Source of the DNA: Acidobacteriota bacterium | GTDB taxonomy: Bacteria; Acidobacteriota; Thermoanaerobaculia; Multivoradales; JAGPDF01 | Direction of reading: 5' to 3' | Length of the DNA: 64,000 nucleotides | Assembly (NCBI GenBank): GCA_014584695.1 | Contig: JACTMI010000028.1 | Span: 124,001 to 188,000, forward strand | Part shown: piece by piece, positions 4,624-18,032 of the stretch | Layout: every line of letters begins with the position of its first letter | How positions within the stretch are numbered: position 1 is the first letter of the stretch | Program-made: the position numbers and the translations under genes | The notes under the pieces: model-generated | The model's database searches: none | Told to the model about the DNA's origin: nothing | What the model saw: the letters and a program-made list of their open reading frames with translations, nothing else

Positions 4624-5845
4624 CGGCGCGCCGCTGCGGGTCCTCTTCCTGACCCAGACCTTCCCGCGCTTCGAGCACGACAGCTCCGGGCCCTTCATAC
4701 GCGATCTGGCGCGGGCGCTGGTGCGCGGCGGCGACAGCGTCCGCGTGCTGACGCCCAGCGGTCCGCAGGTCGCTCCCTGGTGGCTCGAGGATCGGGTCGA
4801 GGTGCGCAGCTTCCGCTATGCGCCGCGCCGGTTCGAGAGCCTGGGCTACAGCCGCAGCCTGCGCGCCGACGAGCGGATCCGGGCCTCGGCGGGGCTGGTC
4901 GCGCCGCTCTACCTGCTGGCCGCTCGCCGGGCGGTCGCGCGCGAACTGGCCACCGGCGCGTGGGACCTGGTCCAGGCGCACTGGGTGGTTCCGAACGCTC
5001 TCGCCGCCGCCCCCTTCGGCCGTCGGGTGCCGCTGGCGGTCGGGCTGCACGGCAGCGACGTCTTCCTGGCCGAGAAACCGGTCCTGCGCACCCTGGTGGC
5101 TCGCGCCCTGCGCGGCGTGCGCGTCTTGACCAGTTGCTCGCCGGAGCTCGCACGACGGATCGAGGCGATCGGGTTCCCATCCGCCCGGACGCGAGTGATC
5201 CCCTACGGCGTGGACGTGCAGCTGTTCCGGCCGGCTCCGGAGCGACGCTCGGTCTGGCGTCTCAAGCTGGGCATTCCCGACCAGGCGCCGACCCTGCTCG
5301 GCGTCGGGCGGCTGGCGACCAAGAAGGGCTTCGAGGTGCTGATGCGGGCGTTGCCCGAGCTCTTCGCGCGGGTGCCAGGTGCCCACGTCGTGCTCGCGGG
5401 GGGAGGGGACCTCGAAGGGCCGTTGCGCGCCGCGGCGGCGCCGTTCGCGTCGCAGGTCCATTTCACCGGCCCGGTCCTGCACGACACGCTGCCCGATCTC
5501 TACCGAGCGGCGGACTTCTTCGTGCTGCCGGCGGTGCACGACGCCGCCGGCAACGTCGATGGCCTGCCCAACGTCATCCTCGAGGCCATGGCGTCTGGCC
5601 TGCCCGTGCTCGCCAGCGACATTTCCGGGATTCCAATGGCCGTCGAAGACGGCGTAACGGGGCGGCTGGTGGCCGAGCGCGACGTGGCGGGACTGGCCGC
5701 AGCAGCGGTGGCTCTCGCGCTCGACGCCGACGCCCGCCGTCGGATGGGGGAGCTGGCGCGCCGACGGGCTGAAGCTGACCTGACCTGGGACGCGGTCGCG
5801 CGCCGGTATCGCGAGGCGTACCGCCTGGCACTCACCCCGCGTTGA
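4619..5845 (+). CDS. Family 4 (GT-B) glycosyltransferase with a rare start codon
   Basis: The protein is a GT-B retaining glycosyltransferase: an N-terminal acceptor half with FLTQTFPRFEHDSSGPFIRD, a LHGSDVFLAEKP loop, then a donor half with GVGRLATKKGFEVLM, VLAGGGDLEGPL and the EAMASGLPVLASD nucleotide-sugar site. The frame has no ATG, GTG or TTG before the conserved N-terminal strand; the first GTG (4721) would remove about 30 conserved residues. The two candidates are ATT at 4619, which overlaps the previous stop codon and lies 7 bases after an AAGGAGA sequence, and CTG at 4634, which would give an N-terminus MRVLFLTQTFPR. I report the ATT (408 residues) for its Shine-Dalgarno placement. 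A sequencing error is a third possibility. The 3' end overlaps the opposing TPR-PDZ gene by 14 bases. Confidence 0.85.
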   Translation: MSGAPLRVLFLTQTFPRFEHDSSGPFIRDLARALVRGGDSVRVLTPSGPQVAPWWLEDRVEVRSFRYAPRRFESLGYSRSLRADERIRASAGLVAPLYLLAARRAVARELATGAWDLVQAHWVVPNALAAAPFGRRVPLAVGLHGSDVFLAEKPVLRTLVARALRGVRVLTSCSPELARRIEAIGFPSARTRVIPYGVDVQLFRPAPERRSVWRLKLGIPDQAPTLLGVGRLATKKGFEVLMRALPELFARVPGAHVVLAGGGDLEGPLRAAAAPFASQVHFTGPVLHDTLPDLYRAADFFVLPAVHDAAGNVDGLPNVILEAMASGLPVLASDISGIPMAVEDGVTGRLVAERDVAGLAAAAVALALDADARRRMGELARRRAEADLTWDAVARRYREAYRLALTPR

Positions 5846-7574
5846 GTCGCAACTCGAGCTGCCGGCCCTGGCGGAGGATTTCCAGCCGGAGCTCGCGCCG
5901 GGCCGCGGCGAAGGCGCTGGCGAGGGCGGCGGGCGTGGTGACGGCGGCGCCGTCGGCGCGCAGCACGAGGTCACCGACCTGGAGTCCGCCTCGAGCCGCG
6001 GGGCTGCCGGCAGCCACCTGCTCGACCAGCAGTCCGCGCAACCCGAGGGCCGGGTAGTCGACCTCCTTGAGCTGGGCGCCGAGGGCCGGCGGCTGGGCGC
6101 CGCGCCGCTCGGTCGCCGGGGGCGACTTCTGCGCCTCCAGACGCGCCACGATCGCCGCAGCCTCCGCGCTGGCGGGCTCGATTTCCAGGACGCGGCGGAA
6201 CGCCGCCTCGGCGCCGACCAGATCGCGCTTCGCGAGCAGCGCGCTGCCCAAGTTGTGGAGGATGTCGGCGCGATCGGGCGCCAGCGCCGCGGCCTGGCTC
6301 AGGGCCTCGGCGGCGCCGCCCGGGTCGTCCGCCCGCAGGCGCGCCAACCCGAGCAGGACCCAGCCATCGGGCCGCTCCGGGCTGAATTGGGTGGCGATGC
6401 TCGCCGCCGCAGCCGCGCCCAGGATGTCGCCGCCCGCCAGGCGGCCTTCGGCGAGCAGCAACGCCGCCGTTTCGGCGTCGCCAGCGCGGTTGCCGGGATC
6501 GAGCTCGAGCGCGCGAGCCAGGGATTCGAGCGCCCCCTGCAGATTGCCCAGGCCGCGCTGTGCCCGCCCCAGGTGGATCCAGAGGTCGGGCGTTTCCGGT
6601 TGCTCCCGGGTTGCCTCGAGCAGCACCGCCACTGCCTCGACCCATTCCTGGCGCTCGATGTGGGCGAGCCCGATCTGTCGCGCGACGTCGACGTCGCGGG
6701 GATCCAGTTCGCGCGCCCGGCGATAGGCGGCGAGGGCCTCCGGCTTGCGCCCGAGGCGGGCGCGGGTGAGGCCGAGGTTGTACCAGGCCTTGGCGTCCGC
6801 GCGATCCAGCTTGACGGCTTCCCCGAGGGCGGTCTCCGCGTCGTCGAATTGGCCGCGGGCGAAGTAGATGACCGCGGCGTTGTTGAGCGCCTGCGCCTTG
6901 AGCTCGCGCGACACCGATTCCGGCCGCCCTCGCTCGAGCGCCAGCACCCGCTCGAAGCCGGCCAGCGCGGCTTCCTGGCGACCCGTCCGCTGGTCCACCA
7001 CTGCGAGGTTGTAGAGGCCGTCCGGGTCGTCGGGCCCCAGGCGGAGCCCTTCTTCGAGCAGGCGCCGCGCGGCTTCGTAGCGGCCGGCCGAGATCTCGGC
7101 GACGGCGCGGTTGAGCCGGTCCACCGCTTCGCTGCGCCGGCGCAGGAGCGCGTCGCGCAGGGCGTCCTGGTGGAGCGCGGTGAATTCGGCGTTGTACAGA
7201 TCTGCCCGGAAGGGCGTCGCCGGATCTTCGAACAGCGCCTGCACCAGCTCCGACGTCGCGCCGGCGGCGTCGCCGAGCTGAAAGAGGAGCCAGGCAGTGG
7301 TCAGGTGATGGCGCGCCCGCTCGGAGGGGCCTTCGGCTCCCTCCGCGAGCGCGCGGTAGAGACCGATGGCGCGCGCGAGGTCACCGTCGGCATATGCCTG
7401 CTGCGCCTCCGCTTCCAGCGCGCCCACGGCCGCCGGCGGGCTCTGGGCCTGGCGCTCGTCGAGGTCCTCCTCGACCAGCTCACGGTCGGGCGGCTGCGCG
7501 CCGAGCGCCGCCGGGGCAAGCAGCGCCACGGTGAGCAGAAGCGGCGGCCAGGGGTGGCAGCGATGCGATCTCAT
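5832..7574 (-). CDS. Secreted TPR-repeat protein with C-terminal PDZ domain
   Basis: The 580-residue product starts with a probable signal peptide (hydrophobic LLLTVALLAPAALGA after a short basic start). Its body is a long array of tetratricopeptide repeats, recognisable by repeated A-x-x-x-Y/L ... P motifs such as AKAWYNLGLTRARLGRKPEA and DILHNLGSALLAKRDLVGA. The last 75 or so residues form a PDZ-like domain (LGLRGLLVEQVAAGSPAARG, GLQVGDLVLRADG). No protease domain accompanies the PDZ. It probably acts as a periplasmic or surface scaffold for protein-protein contacts. The ATG at 7574 lies 29 bases after the kinase stop codon, so the two genes are probably co-expressed. Its function beyond scaffolding is unknown. 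Confidence 0.85.
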   Translation of the reverse strand: MRSHRCHPWPPLLLTVALLAPAALGAQPPDRELVEEDLDERQAQSPPAAVGALEAEAQQAYADGDLARAIGLYRALAEGAEGPSERARHHLTTAWLLFQLGDAAGATSELVQALFEDPATPFRADLYNAEFTALHQDALRDALLRRRSEAVDRLNRAVAEISAGRYEAARRLLEEGLRLGPDDPDGLYNLAVVDQRTGRQEAALAGFERVLALERGRPESVSRELKAQALNNAAVIYFARGQFDDAETALGEAVKLDRADAKAWYNLGLTRARLGRKPEALAAYRRARELDPRDVDVARQIGLAHIERQEWVEAVAVLLEATREQPETPDLWIHLGRAQRGLGNLQGALESLARALELDPGNRAGDAETAALLLAEGRLAGGDILGAAAAASIATQFSPERPDGWVLLGLARLRADDPGGAAEALSQAAALAPDRADILHNLGSALLAKRDLVGAEAAFRRVLEIEPASAEAAAIVARLEAQKSPPATERRGAQPPALGAQLKEVDYPALGLRGLLVEQVAAGSPAARGGLQVGDLVLRADGAAVTTPAALASAFAAARRELRLEILRQGRQLELRLNAG

Positions 7575-7603
7575 GGCAGCCTCGGACGCGGCACGGTCGT
7601 GGT

Positions 7604-9412
<1,809 letters not shown>

Positions 9413-9429
9413 GCCGGAATTCCGGCGCG

Positions 9430-9435
9430 ATGGTA
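9430..9435 (-). promoter_or_regulatory. Extended -10-like TGCTACCAT before kinase gene
   Basis: TACCAT, preceded by TGC, ends 17 bases before the kinase ATG (9412). It lies downstream of the alternative GTG at 9439, which argues against that longer start. Confidence 0.45.
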
Positions 9436-9472
9436 GCACGCGCGGCGCGCCCGCTCGGAGCTCAACCGCGAT

Positions 9473-11290
9473 TCAGCGGGGCGCTCGGGCGGGGCTCGCG
9501 GCATCGTCGAATAGCTGCGACAGGAGCTCCGCGAGCGCCGCGGCGCCGCCGGGCCCGAGACGTGCTCCCGGCGGCGCCAAGCCGCGCGGTCGCGCGAGCA
9601 GGCGGAGCCGCAGCGGATCGACCGCGGCGGCTGCGGCCAGTGCGTCGCCCGCCTCGGACGCGCCCGACGGATCGTGGATCAGGAGCAGCGGGACGCGCGG
9701 CGGCACGCCCGCGGCGAACCGGGCGAGCACGAAATCCAGGTCCGGGTCGATCGCCGCCGCCCCGGCGAGGCCCGCGTCGACGGTGGCTGCCGCGAGCGTG
9801 GCCAAGCGTGAAGCACGGGGGCCCGAGCCCACGAGCGCCACCGGACGGGTCTGGGCATCGACCTCCTCCACCAACCAACGGCGCGCTCTCCCCAGCGCTG
9901 CGAGGTCGCTGGCGCTGGACTCGCCGGTCGCCCCGGCCTCCCCCCGCGAGCCGTGGACGTCCGGCGGCGCGAGCCGGAGCACGGCTACACCGCGTTGCGC
10001 AAGGTACTGACCGAACGGCAACAGATCGAACCAGGGGGGCGACGCCGCGTCGTCCTGCAGCCAGAGGACGGCGGCCCGCGCCCCCGTCGGCGTGCGCGGG
10101 CGCAGCAGCTCGCCGCCCCAGACGCCGGCGGGGAGCGCGAGCTCCACCAGCTCCGGCTCCGCCAGGTCTCGGGGGGCGATGGTCGGAGTCAGGCCATAGG
10201 TCAGCGGCTGGGCCTCGCCACCGGCATCGAGGCGCCAAAGGTCACGCGGCCAGCGGCCCCCGGCCAGGGCATACAGCGCCACCGCGCCGCTGCGGTCGAA
10301 CCAGATGTCGACCGGGCGCGTGCCGGGCGGAGCGGGCAGCTCGGGACCCTGCTCGGTCGTGCCAGCCAGCCACCTCATCGCGGCGCGCCCGCGACACGAG
10401 ACCAGGACCGCCGCGAGCCGCGCTCCAGTGCGCAGGCCGGTCGGGTGACAGTTCGCTCCGAGCACCTCCGGACGGCGCTCGCCGGTTGCGACGTCGAGCC
10501 ACTCGGCTCGGCTCGCTCCGCTGCCGTCCTCGTAGCTCAACAGCAGCTGACGACCATCGAACGCGAACCCGATCGGCCGGATCGTCGCGGGCGACTCTGC
10601 CTGACCGAGCGCGATCACCTGGCCCGAGCTACGCTCGACGAGGTGGAGCTCGGTGGCGGACGAGGTCTGGAGCAGCGCCGCCGCGAGCTGGCCGTCGGGC
10701 GAGAGGCAGACGAGCTCCAGGCCGGCTGGCAGGCCCGCCTGCTCCCGCACCTCGCCGTTCGCTCGCAACTCGAGCCACCGCTCACCCGTGGCCTCGGCCT
10801 GGCGGCTCGAAGCCAGGTGTGGGGTTCCGTCTCGATCGAGCCCCAGGAGCCGCCAGCGTTCGCCCACGGGCGGGCCGAGCCGTCTCGTCGCACCGTCGCT
10901 CCGGACCAGGAGCCACTCCGGCGCCGTGCCGTCGACGCCGGAGAGCTCGACCAGGGCGGCGCCATCGGCCAGCGCCGCGAGCGCGCGCGAGTCGCGCGAT
11001 CGCCCCGGCAGCAGCGCGGCGATCTCGCCCGACTCGAGCGCGAGGCGCACGGCGTCCAACCGTTCCTCCGACTGCCGGGTCGCGAGCCAGGCGCCGCCCG
11101 GCAAGGGTGCCGCCGGCTCCAGAGAGTGGATGGCGAGGAACGCGGCGAGAGAATCTGGCCGGGCGGAGGGCAGCGGCGAGGTCGCGGGAGCGGGCTCGTC
11201 GCGACATCCCGCGGCGGCGAGCAGCAGCGCGGCCGCCGTCACCACGCGCCGGCTCCGGCGTCCCGACGCGGGCTGGTAGAGTGGCCGCAT
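9473..11290 (-). CDS. Lipoprotein resembling an S9 peptidase, probably catalytically dead
   Basis: The 605-residue product has a lipoprotein signal (basic RRSRR, then AAALLLAAAGC). A beta-propeller-like region follows, with repeats such as CLSPDGQLAAALL and FAFDGRQLLLSYEDGSG, then an alpha/beta-hydrolase-like region (ELLRPRTPTGARAAVLWLQDD). This order matches prolyl-oligopeptidase (S9) proteins. The expected nucleophile motif GxSxGG is replaced by VALVGSGPRAS, and I find no clear C-terminal catalytic His, so enzyme activity is unlikely. It may serve as a binding or sensing protein on the envelope. The ATG (11290-11288) overlaps the start codon of the divergent zinc-ribbon gene by two bases. 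A TGGTATTTT element ends 9 bases before it, which supports this start although no Shine-Dalgarno sequence is seen. Confidence 0.7.
   Translation of the reverse strand: MRPLYQPASGRRSRRVVTAAALLLAAAGCRDEPAPATSPLPSARPDSLAAFLAIHSLEPAAPLPGGAWLATRQSEERLDAVRLALESGEIAALLPGRSRDSRALAALADGAALVELSGVDGTAPEWLLVRSDGATRRLGPPVGERWRLLGLDRDGTPHLASSRQAEATGERWLELRANGEVREQAGLPAGLELVCLSPDGQLAAALLQTSSATELHLVERSSGQVIALGQAESPATIRPIGFAFDGRQLLLSYEDGSGASRAEWLDVATGERRPEVLGANCHPTGLRTGARLAAVLVSCRGRAAMRWLAGTTEQGPELPAPPGTRPVDIWFDRSGAVALYALAGGRWPRDLWRLDAGGEAQPLTYGLTPTIAPRDLAEPELVELALPAGVWGGELLRPRTPTGARAAVLWLQDDAASPPWFDLLPFGQYLAQRGVAVLRLAPPDVHGSRGEAGATGESSASDLAALGRARRWLVEEVDAQTRPVALVGSGPRASRLATLAAATVDAGLAGAAAIDPDLDFVLARFAAGVPPRVPLLLIHDPSGASEAGDALAAAAAVDPLRLRLLARPRGLAPPGARLGPGGAAALAELLSQLFDDAASPARAPR
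11277..11282 (+). promoter_or_regulatory. Extended -10-like TGGTAGAGT, leaderless zinc-ribbon gene
   Basis: TAGAGT ends 6 bases before the ATG at 11289, so transcription would begin at or next to the start codon. The box lies inside the first codons of the divergent S9-like gene. Confidence 0.6.
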
Positions 11291-11774
11291 GTCGGACCGA
11301 AAATACCAGCAGCGCGGGTATCAAGAGTCGGATCGGCAGGAGCGCGAGCGCGGCCAGGAGAGCGACCGGCCACGGGTTCCGCGGCCGCCGCGGGATCCGC
11401 GCGAAGCGCCGCGCGGTCGCGGCCTCGGGGGGCCGACGCAGAGTGTCTTCCGCTGCGCCCGGTGTGGTACCGCGCAGCCGCTGGCGGCGGCGATGGCGGC
11501 CGATGCGCGCTGCGCGGCTTGCAGCGCGGATCTGCACACCTGCACCAACTGCCTGTCCTTCGACACCGGGGCGCCGAACCAGTGCCGTCAACCGGGAATC
11601 ATCCGTGTGCCGCGCAAGGACCAGCGCAACGACTGCCCGCAGTTCGATCCCCGCGAGCGCCAGGAGTCGACGGCGGAGACCCCGGGCGGCGGTCGCCCGC
11701 CGAGTGAAGGCAAGGGCGGCTCCGGCCGCGCCGCCGACGCCCGCGCGGCGTTCGACGCGTTGTTCAAGATCTGA
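11289..11774 (+). CDS. Zinc-ribbon protein with disordered charged arms, family unknown
   Basis: The 161-residue protein has a central block of nine or so Cys residues between two low-complexity arms. The N-terminal 50 residues are rich in Arg, Asp, Glu and Pro (QESDRQERERGQESDRPR). The core has CARCG, CAAC and CTNC pairs that would form one or two zinc ribbons, followed by a conserved-looking RVPRKDQRNDCPQFDPR. The C-terminal arm is Gly/Ser-rich and ends in a short helix (ARAAFDALFKI). Such an arrangement suits a nucleic-acid or protein-binding adaptor, but no function can be assigned. The ATG is preceded, 6 bases away, by TAGAGT and has no Shine-Dalgarno sequence, as expected for a leaderless mRNA. 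It is divergent from the S9-like lipoprotein gene. Confidence 0.75.
   Translation: MSDRKYQQRGYQESDRQERERGQESDRPRVPRPPRDPREAPRGRGLGGPTQSVFRCARCGTAQPLAAAMAADARCAACSADLHTCTNCLSFDTGAPNQCRQPGIIRVPRKDQRNDCPQFDPRERQESTAETPGGGRPPSEGKGGSGRAADARAAFDALFKI
11300..11305 (-). promoter_or_regulatory. Extended -10-like TGGTATTTT, S9-like gene
   Basis: TATTTT on the minus strand ends 9 bases before the ATG at 11290. The box lies inside codons 4-6 of the zinc-ribbon gene. Confidence 0.55.
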
Positions 11775-11837
11775 AGGCTGACGCCGCCGGCGCGGGCGAA
11801 TCCGAGATCGCCATCCTCGGCGGGCAAGGCGTCGCGG

Positions 11838-12527
11838 CTAGACCGGCTCGGCGATCCCTGATTCCAGCTCGCGGCGGATCACCGCGCGCAGCAGCTCGGC
11901 CTCATCCGGGTCCATCCGGTCGAACTCCAGGGCGACCTCGTAGAGCCCTTCCGAACCCGCTATCGGCTGCGAGGTGACGATCCGCGCATGGGTGGTGAGC
12001 GTGCGCGGTTCGAGCCGAAGCTCGACGTCGCAGCCGACCCCCGGCTCGACCGCCAGGCTGGTTTCCACGGCCATGCCGTGCAGGTTGATCGTCCGCACTT
12101 CGAATTCGGCCGAGGAGCTGACCGCCACCGAGCTCTCCTCGAGCCGGAAGCGGCCGAAGATCCGCGTCTCGAGGGTGACGATCGCGTGGCTCTCGAGGAA
12201 GGACAGCAGTTCGCGCGACCCCTCCGTCAGCACGTCGGCGAACTCGATCCCGGCCCGGTAGACGGGCAGGGTCTCGCCCTGGTCATTGGTCCGCGTGCCC
12301 TGGAGAAAGCACCAGACCACCCGCCCCTGGAGCATCAGCAACTCGCTCCCTTTGCGCAGACGCAGCGAGATGCGGTGGTGCGGCGCCAGGCGGGACTGGG
12401 TCTCGATCGCCATGCCGGCGATGCCGATGTCGAGCACCTTGCCGTCGAGGGAGAGGATCAGCTGACCGTGGGTTTGCGGCAGCCGGACTCTGCGGCTGCG
12501 CCGTCGGTCGGATTCGGCGGTCGTCAT
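11838..12527 (-). CDS. Tandem PilZ-like cyclic-di-GMP-binding protein
   Basis: The 229-residue cytoplasmic protein seems to hold two PilZ-type barrels. The first starts with RRRSRRVRLP, matching the RxxxR cyclic-di-GMP arm, and has DIGIAGMAIE in place of the D/NxSxxG strand. The second (from about residue 115) has RFRLEESS and INLHGMAVE, with no clear RxxxR arm, so it may be structural. PilZ proteins change conformation when they bind cyclic-di-GMP and control motility, polysaccharide or transcription targets. The ATG lies 10 bases after moaA, so it is probably read through from the moaA promoter. The EAL protein at the left edge could influence the same second messenger. Confidence 0.8.
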   Translation of the reverse strand: MTTAESDRRRSRRVRLPQTHGQLILSLDGKVLDIGIAGMAIETQSRLAPHHRISLRLRKGSELLMLQGRVVWCFLQGTRTNDQGETLPVYRAGIEFADVLTEGSRELLSFLESHAIVTLETRIFGRFRLEESSVAVSSSAEFEVRTINLHGMAVETSLAVEPGVGCDVELRLEPRTLTTHARIVTSQPIAGSEGLYEVALEFDRMDPDEAELLRAVIRRELESGIAEPV

Positions 12528-12537
12528 GATCGGGATC

Positions 12538-13563
12538 TCAGCCGCCAATATACGACATCTCGATCCGGGGTCCAGGACGGGTGGCCGCGGTCCGCAGCTC
12601 CGAGTAGCGGTCGTCGCGGTCGCGCCAGCGTCCGGCGACCAGCGTTGCGAGCTCGTCGTCGCTCGCCCCGCCGCGCAGCGGGCCGCGCAGATCGAGCCCC
12701 TCGGCGGCAAACAGGCAAGTGAACAGGCGGCCGTCGGCCGAGAGCCGGGCGCGCGTGCAGTCGCCGCAGAAGGGCTGCGTCACCGAGCTGATCAGGCCGA
12801 CCTCCCCCGGCCAGCCGGCGACCCGGTAGCGGCGCGCGACCTCGCCTCGGTAGCCCGGCTCGACCGGCTCGAGCTCGAGCTCGGCGGCGATGCGCGCGTG
12901 GATCTCCCGGGCGGGGACGACCTGCTCGAGGCGCCAGCCGTTGCTGGTGCCGACGTCCATGTACTCGATGAAGCGGACCTCGTGGCCGCGGGGGGCGAAG
13001 CGGCGGACCAGGGGCAGGATTTCGCCCTCGTTGACGCCGCGCCGGATCACGGCGTTGAGCTTGGGCGGCGGAAAGCCGGCTCGCTGCGCCGCCTCGATCC
13101 CCGCCAGCACCCGGTCCACGGGGACTTCGGTGTCGTTGGTGCGGCGGAAGACCGCCGGATCGAGGGCATCGAGCGAGACCGTAACCCGCCGGAGCCCGGC
13201 CGCGCGCAGTGGCGCCGCAGCCTCCGCCAGCAGCGAGCCGTTGGTGGTCAGCGCGAGATCGGCGCCGATGCCTCCCAGCCGCCGCACCAGGTCCGTGAGA
13301 TCGCGGCGCAGCAGCGGCTCGCCGCCGGTCAGCCGGATCTTGAGCACGCCGAGCCGAACGAACGTCGCGGCCAGGCGAGCGAGCTCCTCGTAGGTCAGGA
13401 TCTGCGCGCGCGGCAGGAAGGGGTGGTCCGGGCCGAACACCTCGCGCGGCATGCAATAGGCGCAGCGGAAATTGCAGCGGTCGGTGACCGAGATCCTGAG
13501 GTCTCGCAGCGGTCTGCGACCGAGGTCGGCCACCGGCCCCGCTGCGTGATCGATCCGCTCCAT
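12538..13563 (-). CDS. moaA: GTP 3',8-cyclase, molybdenum cofactor biosynthesis
   Basis: MoaA is a radical-SAM enzyme that turns GTP into 3',8-cyclo-GTP, the first step of molybdopterin synthesis. The 341-residue sequence has the radical-SAM triad Cys30-x3-Cys34-x2-Cys37 (CNFRCAYC), the SAM-binding TGGEPLLR motif, the second cluster motif CGDCTRARLSADG ... CLF, and the C-terminal Gly-Gly that the family needs for activity. No moaC, moaD or moaE gene is in the window, but a molybdopterin oxidoreductase gene lies 15 kb away. The ATG has a TACAAT hexamer ending 6 bases before it and no Shine-Dalgarno sequence, suggesting leaderless expression. Confidence 0.95.
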   Translation of the reverse strand: MERIDHAAGPVADLGRRPLRDLRISVTDRCNFRCAYCMPREVFGPDHPFLPRAQILTYEELARLAATFVRLGVLKIRLTGGEPLLRRDLTDLVRRLGGIGADLALTTNGSLLAEAAAPLRAAGLRRVTVSLDALDPAVFRRTNDTEVPVDRVLAGIEAAQRAGFPPPKLNAVIRRGVNEGEILPLVRRFAPRGHEVRFIEYMDVGTSNGWRLEQVVPAREIHARIAAELELEPVEPGYRGEVARRYRVAGWPGEVGLISSVTQPFCGDCTRARLSADGRLFTCLFAAEGLDLRGPLRGGASDDELATLVAGRWRDRDDRYSELRTAATRPGPRIEMSYIGG

Positions 13564-13569
13564 GCACCG

Positions 13570-13575
13570 ATTGTA
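13570..13575 (-). promoter_or_regulatory. -10-like TACAAT, leaderless moaA
   Basis: TACAAT ends 6 bases before the moaA ATG (13563), and no Shine-Dalgarno sequence intervenes; a leaderless transcript covering moaA and the PilZ gene is predicted. Confidence 0.6.
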
Positions 13576-13597
13576 CGCGCGGTCAGAGCCCAGGCTC

Positions 13598-14317
13598 TCA
13601 GCGCGGCCGGTAGAGATACTCGGGGTAGAGCAGGTTGAGCGCCAGGGTGTGCACCGGATCGAACAGGTAGCCGAACAGGCGCCAGGCCACCAGCAGGCCC
13701 GCCAGCGCCAGCATCGGCTGCCGGGCCAGGGCGAGGTAGCCGCGTACCCAGCGTTCCGGCAGGAAGAGCGCGAGCACCGAGCTGCCATCGAGCGGCGGCA
13801 GGGGAAGCAGATTGAAGGCGAAGAGCACCAGGTTGAGCGAGAAGAGGATGCTCAGCAGGGTGCCCAGCGCCGCCGGCAGGCCGTCCGCCGCCGCGACGAC
13901 GGAGGAGAAGGTCGCCGAGGTGGGCGCTTCGAAGCCGCCGGTGGCGATCCCGATGCGGATCGAGAGGGCGGCCAGCATCACCAGCAGCAAGTTGGCGGCC
14001 GGGCCGGCGAGCGCCATCCACCCCGCCCTGCGGGGGTGGCGGTCGGCCCAGGCCGGGTCGAACGGGGCGCTGGCCCAGCCCATCATCCACTGGCGCGACA
14101 GCGCGAAGGAGAGCAGCGGAAAGACCACCGTGCCGAAGGGTTCGCGCCGGACGTGGGGGAGGGGATCTAGAGAAACCTGGCCGCCGAGGTAGGCGGTGGG
14201 ATCTCCCAGCCTCAAGGCCGCCCACGCGTGCGCGGCCTCGTGGCAGCAGGTGGAGAACAGGAAGACCACGTACCAGGCGAGCCCGAGCAGGACGAGATCG
14301 AGGAGCTCCGGCGACAT
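13598..14317 (-). CDS. Site-2-protease-like M50 membrane metalloprotease
   Basis: The 239-residue polytopic protein carries the HExxH zinc motif (HEAAH, residues 26-30) in its first membrane helix and a NLLPLPPLDG motif near residue 190 supplying the third ligand (Asp). Hydrophobic helices cover most of the rest. This is the compact, PDZ-less class of M50 proteases found next to housekeeping genes, which cut within or near the membrane. Its substrate is unknown. The gene lies 75 bases after speA and 34 bases before the moaA start region on the same strand; whether it belongs to the speA transcript is uncertain. Confidence 0.9.
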   Translation of the reverse strand: MSPELLDLVLLGLAWYVVFLFSTCCHEAAHAWAALRLGDPTAYLGGQVSLDPLPHVRREPFGTVVFPLLSFALSRQWMMGWASAPFDPAWADRHPRRAGWMALAGPAANLLLVMLAALSIRIGIATGGFEAPTSATFSSVVAAADGLPAALGTLLSILFSLNLVLFAFNLLPLPPLDGSSVLALFLPERWVRGYLALARQPMLALAGLLVAWRLFGYLFDPVHTLALNLLYPEYLYRPR

Positions 14318-14392
14318 CTCTGCCCCTACCGCGACGGGCCGCCGCCGAGTCGGGAGTCGCGGCGCGCGACGGTCGTCCCGCTCATCTCGCCT

Positions 14393-16309
14393 TCAGTCCC
14401 GCTCGAGGTAGGTGTAGCCGGCCAGGCCCTGTTCGTAGACTCTCAGCAGCTGGCGCGACTCCTCGAGCGTGATGCGCTTGGCCCGCAGCGCGATCTCGGA
14501 GAAGCGTCGGACGCTCGCCATGAGCTGGTCGCGGTCGTAGCTGACGTACTTGAGCACGTCGGTGACGGTGTCGCCGGTGAGCACGTGGTCGATGTGGTAG
14601 CTGCCGCCCTCGCCCAGCGCCACGTGCAGGGTGTTGGTGTCGCCGAACAGGTTGTGCAGGTCGCCTAGGATCTCCTGATAGGCGCCGACCAGGAAGATCC
14701 CCAGGTAGTAGTCCTCCTCCCGCAGCGGATGCAGCTCCAGCACGTGCTTGACGTCCCGGCGGTCGATGAAGCGGTCGATCTTGCCGTCCGAATCGCAGGT
14801 GATGTCGGCCAGCACGCCGCGGCGGCTCGGCTCCTCGTGCAGCCGGTGGATCGGCAGCACCGGGAAGAGCTGGTCGATCGCCCACGCGTCCGGCAGGGAC
14901 TGGAAGACCGAGAAATTGCAGAAGTAGGTGTCCGACAGGCTCCGTTCGAGGCTCTCGAGCTCCTCGGGCACTTCCGGCAGCTCGCGGACCAGGCGCAGGA
15001 TCTTCTGCGACAGCGCCCAGAAGATGTCCTCCGCGATGACCCGCTCCGAGAGGGTGAGGTGATTCAGGTTGTACAGCGAGAGCACCTCGTCGCGGTAGCC
15101 GAGCGCGTCGTGGTAGGCCTCCAGGAGGTTCTTGCGCGAGACCTCTCGGTAGGCGTCGAGCAGGTAGCGGATCGGTGCCGGCGTCTCGTCGTCGAGCTTC
15201 TCCGGCAGGCTGCCGACGGTGAACTCGCCGACGCCGAGGACATCGGCGACCAGAATCGCGTGATGGGCGACCAGCGCTCGACCGGACTCCGACACCAGCG
15301 TCGGGTGCGGCACGCCGTCGGCGTCGCACAGCTCCATGGTGCCGAAGACGATGTCGTTGGCGTACTCCTGAAGCGTGTAGTTCATCGACGACGAGAAGTT
15401 CGTCTGCGAGCCGTCGTAGTCGACCCCCAAGCCGCCGCCGACATCGAGATAGCCGAGCGGAGCACCCAGCTTGTACAGCTCGCAGTAGGTGCGGGCCGCC
15501 TCGCGCAGCGCCTCCTTGACGTTGCGGATCGAGGAGACCTGGCTGCCGAGATGGAAGTGCACCAGCTGGAGCCGGTCGAGCAGGCCGCGCTCGCGCAGGA
15601 ACTGGATCGCCTGGAAGAGGCCGCGGGCCCCCAGCCCGAATTTCGAGCGGTCGCCGCCCGAGGCTTCCCAGTGGCCGGCGCCCCGCGCCGAGAGGCGCGC
15701 GCGAATGCCGATCGAGGGCGCGACGCCGACGCGCTCGGCGACCTCGGCGATCAGCGGCAGCTCGGAGAACTTCTCGACCACCAGGATGATGTGGCGTCCC
15801 AGCTTCGAGCCGAGCAGGGCGGTCTCGATGTACTCCTCGTCCTTGTAGCCGTTGCAGACCACCACCGCCTCTTCGTCCTCCAGCATGCCGAGGACGGCGA
15901 GCAGCTCGGGTTTCGAACCCGCCTCGAGGCCGAAGTGGTAGGGCCGCCCGGCGTCGAGCAGCCGCTCCACGACGTAGCGCTCCTGGTTGACCTTGATCGG
16001 GTAGACGCCCCGATAGGTTCCCTGGTAGCCGTACTCCTGGATCGCCCTGCGAAAGGCCTCGTTGAGCTCGGTGACGCGGGCGGCGAGGATCTGCGAGAAG
16101 CGGATCAGCAGCGGCGGCAGGATGCCGCGGCGGCGGACCTCCTCGACCAGTTCCTTGAGGTCGACCGCTTCGGTGCCCGGCCCCCCCGGCTGGACGATCA
16201 GGTTGCCCTGCTCGTTGGCCGAGAAGTAGCCGTTCCCCCACTGCCGGATGCTGTAGAGGTCGAGCGAGTCTTCGACCGTCCACTTGCGGGGAAGTACCTT
16301 GTTCGCCAT
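14393..16309 (-). CDS. speA: Biosynthetic arginine decarboxylase
   Basis: This 638-residue PLP enzyme makes agmatine from arginine, the entry to putrescine and spermidine. The N-terminus (WTVEDSLDLYSIRQWGNGYF) and the length are typical of SpeA (about 630-660 residues). YPIKVNQERYVVE contains the PLP lysine region of the fold-III barrel; LHFHLGSQ-like VHFHLGSQVSSIRNV and LDVGGGLGVDYDGSQ bind the phosphate; CDADGVPHPTLVSESGRALV carries the C-terminal active-site region. No agmatinase or agmatine deiminase gene is nearby. The ATG has AGGAG about 12 bases upstream, and a TGCTAGAGT promoter-like element lies 61 bases before it. Confidence 0.95.
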   Translation of the reverse strand: MANKVLPRKWTVEDSLDLYSIRQWGNGYFSANEQGNLIVQPGGPGTEAVDLKELVEEVRRRGILPPLLIRFSQILAARVTELNEAFRRAIQEYGYQGTYRGVYPIKVNQERYVVERLLDAGRPYHFGLEAGSKPELLAVLGMLEDEEAVVVCNGYKDEEYIETALLGSKLGRHIILVVEKFSELPLIAEVAERVGVAPSIGIRARLSARGAGHWEASGGDRSKFGLGARGLFQAIQFLRERGLLDRLQLVHFHLGSQVSSIRNVKEALREAARTYCELYKLGAPLGYLDVGGGLGVDYDGSQTNFSSSMNYTLQEYANDIVFGTMELCDADGVPHPTLVSESGRALVAHHAILVADVLGVGEFTVGSLPEKLDDETPAPIRYLLDAYREVSRKNLLEAYHDALGYRDEVLSLYNLNHLTLSERVIAEDIFWALSQKILRLVRELPEVPEELESLERSLSDTYFCNFSVFQSLPDAWAIDQLFPVLPIHRLHEEPSRRGVLADITCDSDGKIDRFIDRRDVKHVLELHPLREEDYYLGIFLVGAYQEILGDLHNLFGDTNTLHVALGEGGSYHIDHVLTGDTVTDVLKYVSYDRDQLMASVRRFSEIALRAKRITLEESRQLLRVYEQGLAGYTYLERD

Positions 16310-16370
16310 GCTTCGAGGGTCTCCTGATCGAGGAAAAGTGGCCGGTGGCTGGAGCGGTGGGGGCGGCGGG

Positions 16371-16376
16371 ACTCTA
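16371..16376 (-). promoter_or_regulatory. Extended -10-like TGCTAGAGT before speA
   Basis: TAGAGT, preceded by TGC, lies 61 bases before the speA ATG, whose leader holds an AGGAG sequence. Confidence 0.4.
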
Positions 16377-16406
16377 GCACCCGGTCCGCCGCGCGGCGGC
16401 ACGCTT

Positions 16407-18032
16407 TCAGGGCGAGCTCGGCAGGTAAACGACCTGTCCGGCCAGGGGGTCGACCGACAGCGCCGCGGCGGCGAAACGGACGCCGGCAGCCCGGAACACG
16501 GCGGTGAACGGCTGCGGGCGGCTCTCGAGTCCGCGGTAGAGGTCCGTGATCGATCGCCACCGAATCTCGAGCGGTCCGAGCTCGTAGAGAGCTGCGTCGA
16601 CGAGCGCGCCCAAGCCGTCGTAGAGCTCGAGCTGGACGTAGCCGCCGGCGAGGTCGAGATTCGCGGCCACGAGCTCGATCGCCGTCGTGACGCCTCCGCC
16701 GATGCCGCCGATGACCTTCTGGCTGGAGCTCCAGCGGGTCGCTGCGAGCTCCTCGACGACATCGGTCGAGCTGCCCGTGGGATCGGCCGCCAGCGCGACG
16801 TTCGCGAACGAGACGATCTGGTCGGTGGCGGCGCCGGTGGGCGCCCGGAAGATCAGCAACAGGGCGCCGCGCGCCCGCTCCAGGCCGAACAGCGACGGAA
16901 TCACGTCCACGATCTGGCGCGCCGTGCCGGGCGGCACGAGCACTCGGCGCGGGGCGGGCGGCTGATCGTACCGGACCTCCGGGAAGAAGACCGCTTCCGC
17001 GAGCGCGAGTGAGGCGCCGAAGTTCTGGATCCGCAACTCGCTCACGACGTCGCCGGGCAGGCCGGATTCGGCGTGGAGCAGGATCGGCAGCAGGGTCGAG
17101 CGGGCGATCCAGAGCGGGGCTTCGCCGCCGACAACGAGCGTGACCTGGTCCGTCGCCACGCCTCCCCCCGCGGTCTCACCGCGCAAGGTGACGACATGGC
17201 TGCCCGGTTCGAGGAAGACGTGCTGGGCCGCCAGGACGAGCGGCGCCGTCGAGGCGGCCCAGCCGCCGTCGCCGAAATCCCATTCGAGCCGGACGAACGA
17301 GCTGAAGAGCGTCGCCGAGAACTCCGCCAGGGCCCCCGCCTCGACCGCTCCCGCCGGCGGCAGGATCTCGAGCCGCGGCGTCGCGAGCAGCTCGAGAAGG
17401 TGCTCGAGGAAGTGGCCCGCCAGCTCCGTGTAGCCGGCGCCGTTGGGGTGGCCGACTTGGTCGTCCGGATCCTGGTTGTAGTAGTTCAGAAAGACGTTGG
17501 GCAGCGACTGGAAGAGCGCGAACTGATCGACCAGCGGCCGGCCGCGCAGATCGGCGAGCGCGCGCAGCGAGACGGCGAGCGCGCTGGTGCGCGCGTTGTT
17601 GGCGTCGGAGGTGGCGGTCGGGAGCCGCGGAATGACGGTGGCATGCACGGCGACCATGCCGGCGGCCTCGGCCCGCGTCGCCATCTGGTCGAGATTGAAG
17701 CGGATGGTCTCGATGCCGATGCTGCCGCGGGAGATGTCGTTGGTCCCCTCCATCAGCAGAAAGTAGTCGCCGCCGTCCGCCAGCACCGAGTCGACGCGCG
17801 ACAGCCCTTCGGCGGTCGTCTCGCCGCCGACGCCGGAGTTCACGACCGTGGCGTCGTAGGCGCGTTCACGGAGCCAGCGCTGGAGCCTCCCGGGATAGCC
17901 CTCGGCCTGCGGCGACGTGTCGCCGTAGCCGAGCGTGATGCTGTCGCCGAAAGCGATGATCCGCAGCGGCGCCGCCGGTAGCGACGCCGCCGCGCCGGCG
18001 AGGAGGAGGCTGAGGGACAGCAGGCGCCACAT
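16407..18032 (-). CDS. Secreted SGNH/GDSL hydrolase with PKD-like domain
   Basis: The 541-residue protein starts with a signal peptide (LLSLSLLLAGAAASLPAAP). An SGNH esterase domain follows: GDSI with nucleophile Ser31, SGVGGE (block II Gly), GTND (block III Asn) and HPNGAGY (block V His). Near residues 215-300 lies a PKD-like immunoglobulin fold with EWDFGDGG. The remaining 240 residues, with strands such as LRIQNFGASLALAEAVFFP, form an unidentified beta-rich C-terminal region. Likely activity is hydrolysis of acyl or acetyl esters on polysaccharide or lipid outside the cytoplasm. The ATG is preceded 9 bases away by TAGAAT and no Shine-Dalgarno sequence. Confidence 0.88.
   Translation of the reverse strand: MWRLLSLSLLLAGAAASLPAAPLRIIAFGDSITLGYGDTSPQAEGYPGRLQRWLRERAYDATVVNSGVGGETTAEGLSRVDSVLADGGDYFLLMEGTNDISRGSIGIETIRFNLDQMATRAEAAGMVAVHATVIPRLPTATSDANNARTSALAVSLRALADLRGRPLVDQFALFQSLPNVFLNYYNQDPDDQVGHPNGAGYTELAGHFLEHLLELLATPRLEILPPAGAVEAGALAEFSATLFSSFVRLEWDFGDGGWAASTAPLVLAAQHVFLEPGSHVVTLRGETAGGGVATDQVTLVVGGEAPLWIARSTLLPILLHAESGLPGDVVSELRIQNFGASLALAEAVFFPEVRYDQPPAPRRVLVPPGTARQIVDVIPSLFGLERARGALLLIFRAPTGAATDQIVSFANVALAADPTGSSTDVVEELAATRWSSSQKVIGGIGGGVTTAIELVAANLDLAGGYVQLELYDGLGALVDAALYELGPLEIRWRSITDLYRGLESRPQPFTAVFRAAGVRFAAAALSVDPLAGQVVYLPSSP

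Follow-up and report, generated by a model that had tools for sequence, protein, structure and literature searches.

Two divergent genes of an acidobacterial genome probably start at one and the same palindromic CATG, which supplies an ATG to each strand. Both messages would be leaderless or nearly so, and the two promoters would compete mildly, with no strict exclusion. We assign this reading, made from sequence, a probability of roughly 0.68. The genes lie in a window of 64,000 nucleotides, bases 124001-188000 of contig C1 of the acidobacterial MAG G000 (4.35 Mb, 71% GC), which is close to Thermoanaerobaculia and has these and further acidobacterial MAGs as its named relatives. Positions below are those of the window, and the features are as follows.

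11289..11774, plus strand: gene of a zinc-ribbon protein of 161 aa, with two CxxC-type Cys clusters and a conserved MSDRKYxQRGYQ start.
9473..11290, minus strand: gene of a 605-aa lipoprotein with the S9 prolyl oligopeptidase fold (beta-propeller plus alpha/beta-hydrolase) and a lipobox AAGC ending at Cys29.
11288..11291, both strands: CATG palindrome containing the ATG of both genes, invariant in 8/8 family genomes and a dual start in 6/8.
11274..11282, plus strand: candidate extended -10 box TGG-TAGAGT, ending 6 nt ahead of the zinc-ribbon ATG; TA.A.T is invariant in 8/8.
11300..11308, minus strand: extended -10-like sequence TGG-TATTTT, 9 nt before the lipoprotein ATG, antisense of the zinc-ribbon R-K-Y codons.

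Positions 11288-11291 read CATG, with the zinc-ribbon ATG at 11289-11291 (plus strand) and the lipoprotein ATG at 11290-11288 (minus strand). Thus the start codons have two bases in common and the genes overlap by 2 bp. TAGAGT occupies 11277-11282, and its first T is 12 bp upstream of the zinc-ribbon ATG. Each box falls within the first codons of the partner gene: read antisense, the plus box encodes residues 3-6 of the lipoprotein (P-L-Y-Q). The initial annotation had described the two-base overlap and the placement of both boxes inside partner codons, and every coordinate in it is correct. It lacked the key point that both boxes are at leaderless distance from their respective ATG, the end of TGGTAGAGT being 6 nt from the zinc-ribbon ATG and that of TGGTATTTT 9 nt from the lipoprotein ATG.

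The palindrome alone carries little weight, because any CATG yields two ATGs, and 3442 CATG sites occur in a sample of about 1.96 Mb of G000, taken in stretches. The shared site goes beyond chance, since neither CATG nor TA.A.T varies among the eight family genomes, and in six of six genomes from two genera the lipoprotein has no usable start but the antisense ATG. The family comparison comprises three genera: g1 and g2 (G000, G001, G002, G003, G004, G006) and g3 (G005, G007).

The zinc-ribbon side is the clearer one. The protein is carried by 64 of 99 relatives, and has no Pfam or NCBIfam match above the cut-off. Its family, widespread in Acidobacteriota, has the seemingly invariant MSDRKYxQRGYQ at the start and AFDALFK at the end. 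The start region aligns without gaps over 120 bases in all eight family genomes, and the -10 letters T, A, A and T (TA.A.T) and the CATG do not vary. In each of the eight, the first T of a TANNNT box is about 12 bp upstream of the start, as in leaderless genes, and no Shine-Dalgarno box precedes the start. A scan for consensus sigma-70 promoters found none at the locus, where there is no -35 match.

The same signature is seen at the genome level. In the sample of about 1.96 Mb, candidate starts show a strong excess of TANNNT 6-9 nt upstream, and internal Met or Val codons show none. The raw peak at distances (d) of 6 and 9 nt is inflated by in-frame stop codons, and thus TA[CT]NNT, a form that rules out an in-frame stop, and the off-frame distances d=7-8 served as controls; TA[CT]NNT was observed 34 times against about 5.5 expected (p=2e-12). 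Of 67 leaderless-type ATG starts, 45 have C at position -1, compared with 36% of internal ATGs (p=2e-7), as expected if transcription begins at the A of C|ATG. The extended TG shows no particular enrichment at the boxes of leaderless genes (19% vs 17%), and so the TG of both boxes is given little weight. A UbiA-like gene unrelated to the zinc ribbon (C7:110028) has TAGAAT or TACAAT 7-8 nt before its start in 6/6 family genomes. The enrichment in G000 corresponds to the signature of leaderless genes reported for bacteria including Acidobacteria, where 9.7-19.4% of genes were predicted to be leaderless of the TANNNT type (PMC3160421).

The conserved box at 6 nt, the genome-wide enrichment, the bias for C at -1 and the UbiA-like parallel together make it very likely that the zinc-ribbon mRNA is leaderless, with A11289 as the probable transcription start on the plus strand. 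Outside the family, zinc-ribbon homologues (e.g. L009, L013, L025) belong either to families with a leaderless-type TATAA box immediately ahead of the start or to families with a clear Shine-Dalgarno box (GGAGG), which suggests that the mode of initiation switched in evolution.

The minus-strand box is less special than the plus box, since its TAYTT core is forced by the conserved zinc-ribbon codons CGN AAR TAY (Arg-Lys-Tyr), whether or not the homologue has the lipoprotein as its neighbour. The last T alone is free; it requires the codon CGA, which accounts for 7% of CGN arginine codons in the genome, and may have been completed by chance. The middle letters TTT are atypical among the boxes of this genome. 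TATTTT at d=9 is present in G000 and G003, and TATACT at d=11 in G002; no TANNNT was found at leaderless distance from the antisense ATG in G001, G004 and G006. The claim of the initial annotation that each promoter lies inside the partner gene stands for the plus strand (TA.A.T in 8/8), while the minus-strand box is kept, as TANNNT at d=9, in two genomes of six. The check it proposed, conservation of both starts and boxes in relatives, divides in the same way, the CATG and the plus box being kept throughout. Selection on the CGA codon that completes the minus box was considered and dropped, as its frequency in genomes with the neighbour (2/6) and without it (about 3/38) is unconvincing.

These observations leave room for a reading in which the plus promoter alone is truly leaderless. 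The lipoprotein would then be expressed from a start deeper in the zinc-ribbon gene, or be weakly transcribed, and TATTTT would be a by-product of the R-K-Y codons. The forced TAYTT core and the sparse occurrence of the box at d=9 are what it would predict, and it has perhaps one chance in three. However, the lipoprotein ATG has no Shine-Dalgarno box in any of the six g1 and g2 genomes, which fits a leaderless message; d=9 falls within the TANNNT peak of the genome; and the sister genus g3 has a clear box (TACGAT) 7 nt ahead of its lipoprotein start in both G005 and G007. Wherever exactly it is, the lipoprotein promoter must sit in the zinc-ribbon coding region, as there is no other DNA nearby. 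A leaderless or nearly leaderless message from TATTTT is our best guess, at about even odds.

The lipoprotein is the divergent neighbour of the zinc-ribbon gene in the six genomes of g1 and g2, at 32-41% protein identity. In all six it begins at the antisense ATG of this CATG, and a lipoprotein signal peptide follows. Where the codons were read one by one, no other start codon precedes the basic residues. The signal peptide of G000, MRPLYQPASGRRSRRVVTAAALLLAAAGC, requires the antisense ATG: the next in-frame starts are GTG codons past all basic residues, and neither TANNNT nor a Shine-Dalgarno box is found ahead of them. The g3 orthologues (profile E 1e-8 and 8e-36) use a TTG 42 bp before the zinc-ribbon ATG, and the antisense ATG of the CATG is out of frame; no outgroup has the gene pair and could thereby polarise the change in start position between g1/g2 and g3.

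One could suppose that the overlap results from 5' over-extension of a lipoprotein gene whose true start is downstream. In one survey, each of the 75 divergent overlaps above 60 bp proved to be a mis-annotation (PMC2478687), and the g3 orthologue does start 42 bp away. However, the overlap here is 2 bp, the alternative GTG codons of G000 would remove the basic residues of the signal peptide and have neither TANNNT nor a Shine-Dalgarno box ahead of them, and the in-frame antisense ATG has been retained in every g1 and g2 genome in spite of the low protein identity. An artefact is thus improbable. With no other plausible start, the CATG overlap is, on this comparison, a real and maintained feature of g1 and g2. 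Homologues starting further downstream, named in the initial annotation as evidence against the overlap, were found only in the sister genus g3.

The AlphaFold model of the lipoprotein has a mean pLDDT of 69, and its best PDB matches are S9 peptidases (Foldseek E about 1e-21), although no Pfam match was found. Neither protein could be firmly assigned to a family by searches of Pfam, NCBIfam and PDB sequences. At the expected place of the S9 nucleophile motif GxSxG, the orthologues read VGSGP, ALGPR, VEGAR, GEGPW or GIGRG. This variation suggests that the nucleophile motif has been lost, and the lipoprotein may be a catalytically dead S9 relative. The region 5832-16500 of the window contains genes for a kinase, the lipoprotein, the zinc ribbon, PilZ, MoaA and SpeA (arginine decarboxylase), and this order is kept across the family where contigs show it.

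The proposed explanation, two divergent leaderless or nearly leaderless genes starting from one CATG, may be outlined as follows. Transcription of the zinc-ribbon gene from its -10 box would begin at or beside the A of the ATG, and this step is well supported. Its initiator C(-1)A(+1) would create the CATG, and with it a ready ATG on the opposite strand. In g1 and g2 the lipoprotein appears to use this ATG, so that its first codons overlie the zinc-ribbon promoter, MxxVY or MxxLY being the -10 box read backwards. The lipoprotein mRNA would begin in the zinc-ribbon coding region, most likely a few bases from the ATG, from TATTTT or TAYTT; our confidence in this step is moderate. The polymerase footprints would overlap by about 40 bp, and initiation would alternate in time. 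From footprint size we infer that simultaneous occupancy by two polymerases is impossible, in agreement with the initial annotation, and that each polymerase would cover, and transcribe through, the promoter of the other.

The initial annotation went further, calling the genes mutually exclusive unless one start was wrong. The comparative evidence indicates that both starts are real, the antisense ATG being kept in all six g1/g2 genomes and the CATG in all eight. Exclusivity is not borne out by published bidirectional promoters, which compete little at basal activity: overlapping bidirectional promoters of E. coli are too weak at the basal level to compete, and repression occurs only if one of them is strongly activated (PMC12825309). 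By this analogy, competition would matter only with one side strongly induced, with no strict on/off. A true switch, in which polymerase competition selects one gene or the other, would draw on the overlapping footprints and on the EcoRV and CfrBI restriction-modification operons, regulated via overlapping divergent core promoters (PMC5333194), but it is very unlikely, since the five bidirectional promoters tested were too weak to compete at the basal level (PMC12825309) and the zinc-ribbon promoter does not differ in g3 despite the other lipoprotein start there, and thus was not shaped for a switch.

Among the 3442 CATG sites of the sample, a few others resemble genuine shared starts; they are leads, not proven pairs. 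The counts of CATG pairs are lower bounds and include false positives, as the gene finder missed the zinc-ribbon gene itself (coding score 8.4). At C16:84687 (L187:4687-4690) of G000, a CATG joins two divergent genes. One encodes 303 residues and has TATCCT at d=8; the other encodes 102 residues and has TAGAAT at d=11. This CATG is also common to the pair in G003, although TATCCT is not retained there, and is not common to it in G002. In G000, the CATG of the leaderless-type UbiA-like gene at C7:110028 (L152:10028) is common with a divergent gene of 758 residues that has a Shine-Dalgarno box. At C16:109788 there is a leaderless-type box on one side of the CATG.

Each leaderless start offers an antisense ATG, because the preferred initiator C|ATG is palindromic. 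It is conceivable, and we suggest it tentatively, that in leaderless-rich genomes divergent genes are repeatedly recruited to a common CATG with promoters buried in the partner, a general and so far undescribed arrangement. If so, the zinc-ribbon/lipoprotein pair and the C16:84687 pair would be instances of it. Such a pair shows how tightly divergent genes may be packed, with zero intergenic DNA and with promoters and first codons superimposed, and this is possible as leaderless messages need no untranslated region. Common CATG starts are predicted for other leaderless-rich phyla and could be sought in TSS maps of actinobacteria or Deinococcus. In annotation, such starts should not be trimmed as errors.

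Leaderless genes, divergent leaderless pairs and overlapping divergent promoters are all already known. In the literature searched, we found no description of a conserved pair that starts from a common CATG and has each promoter inside the coding sequence of the partner. In the known leaderless genes (Zheng et al. 2011, PMC3160421; M. tuberculosis, PMC3898074), a TANNNT -10 box precedes the start by about 12 bp. The zinc-ribbon gene resembles them in box sequence, spacing, high-GC genome and absence of a Shine-Dalgarno box, and the former survey included Acidobacteria. However, both studies treat single genes, and two genes on one start palindrome were not found described there. The M. tuberculosis genes prpD (Rv1130) and Rv1129c are likewise divergent neighbours, both leaderless (PMC3898074), but their mapped 5' ends, 1254630 and 1254510, are 120 bp apart and the coding regions do not overlap.

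The EcoRV and CfrBI systems likewise have overlapping divergent core promoters (PMC5333194). Unlike the CATG pair, these promoters are intergenic, the EcoRV C transcript is not leaderless, and it is under the control of a C protein. Opposite polymerases are likewise unable to bind together at the bidirectional promoters of Warman et al. (2026, PMC12825309), which have a shared symmetric -10 element. Their start sites flank or lie within the one shared -10, usually 18 bp apart. No shared -10 is seen at the CATG pair: its two distinct boxes, at 11277-11282 and 11300-11305, face each other from the far sides of the common start, and each transcript would cross the promoter of the other.
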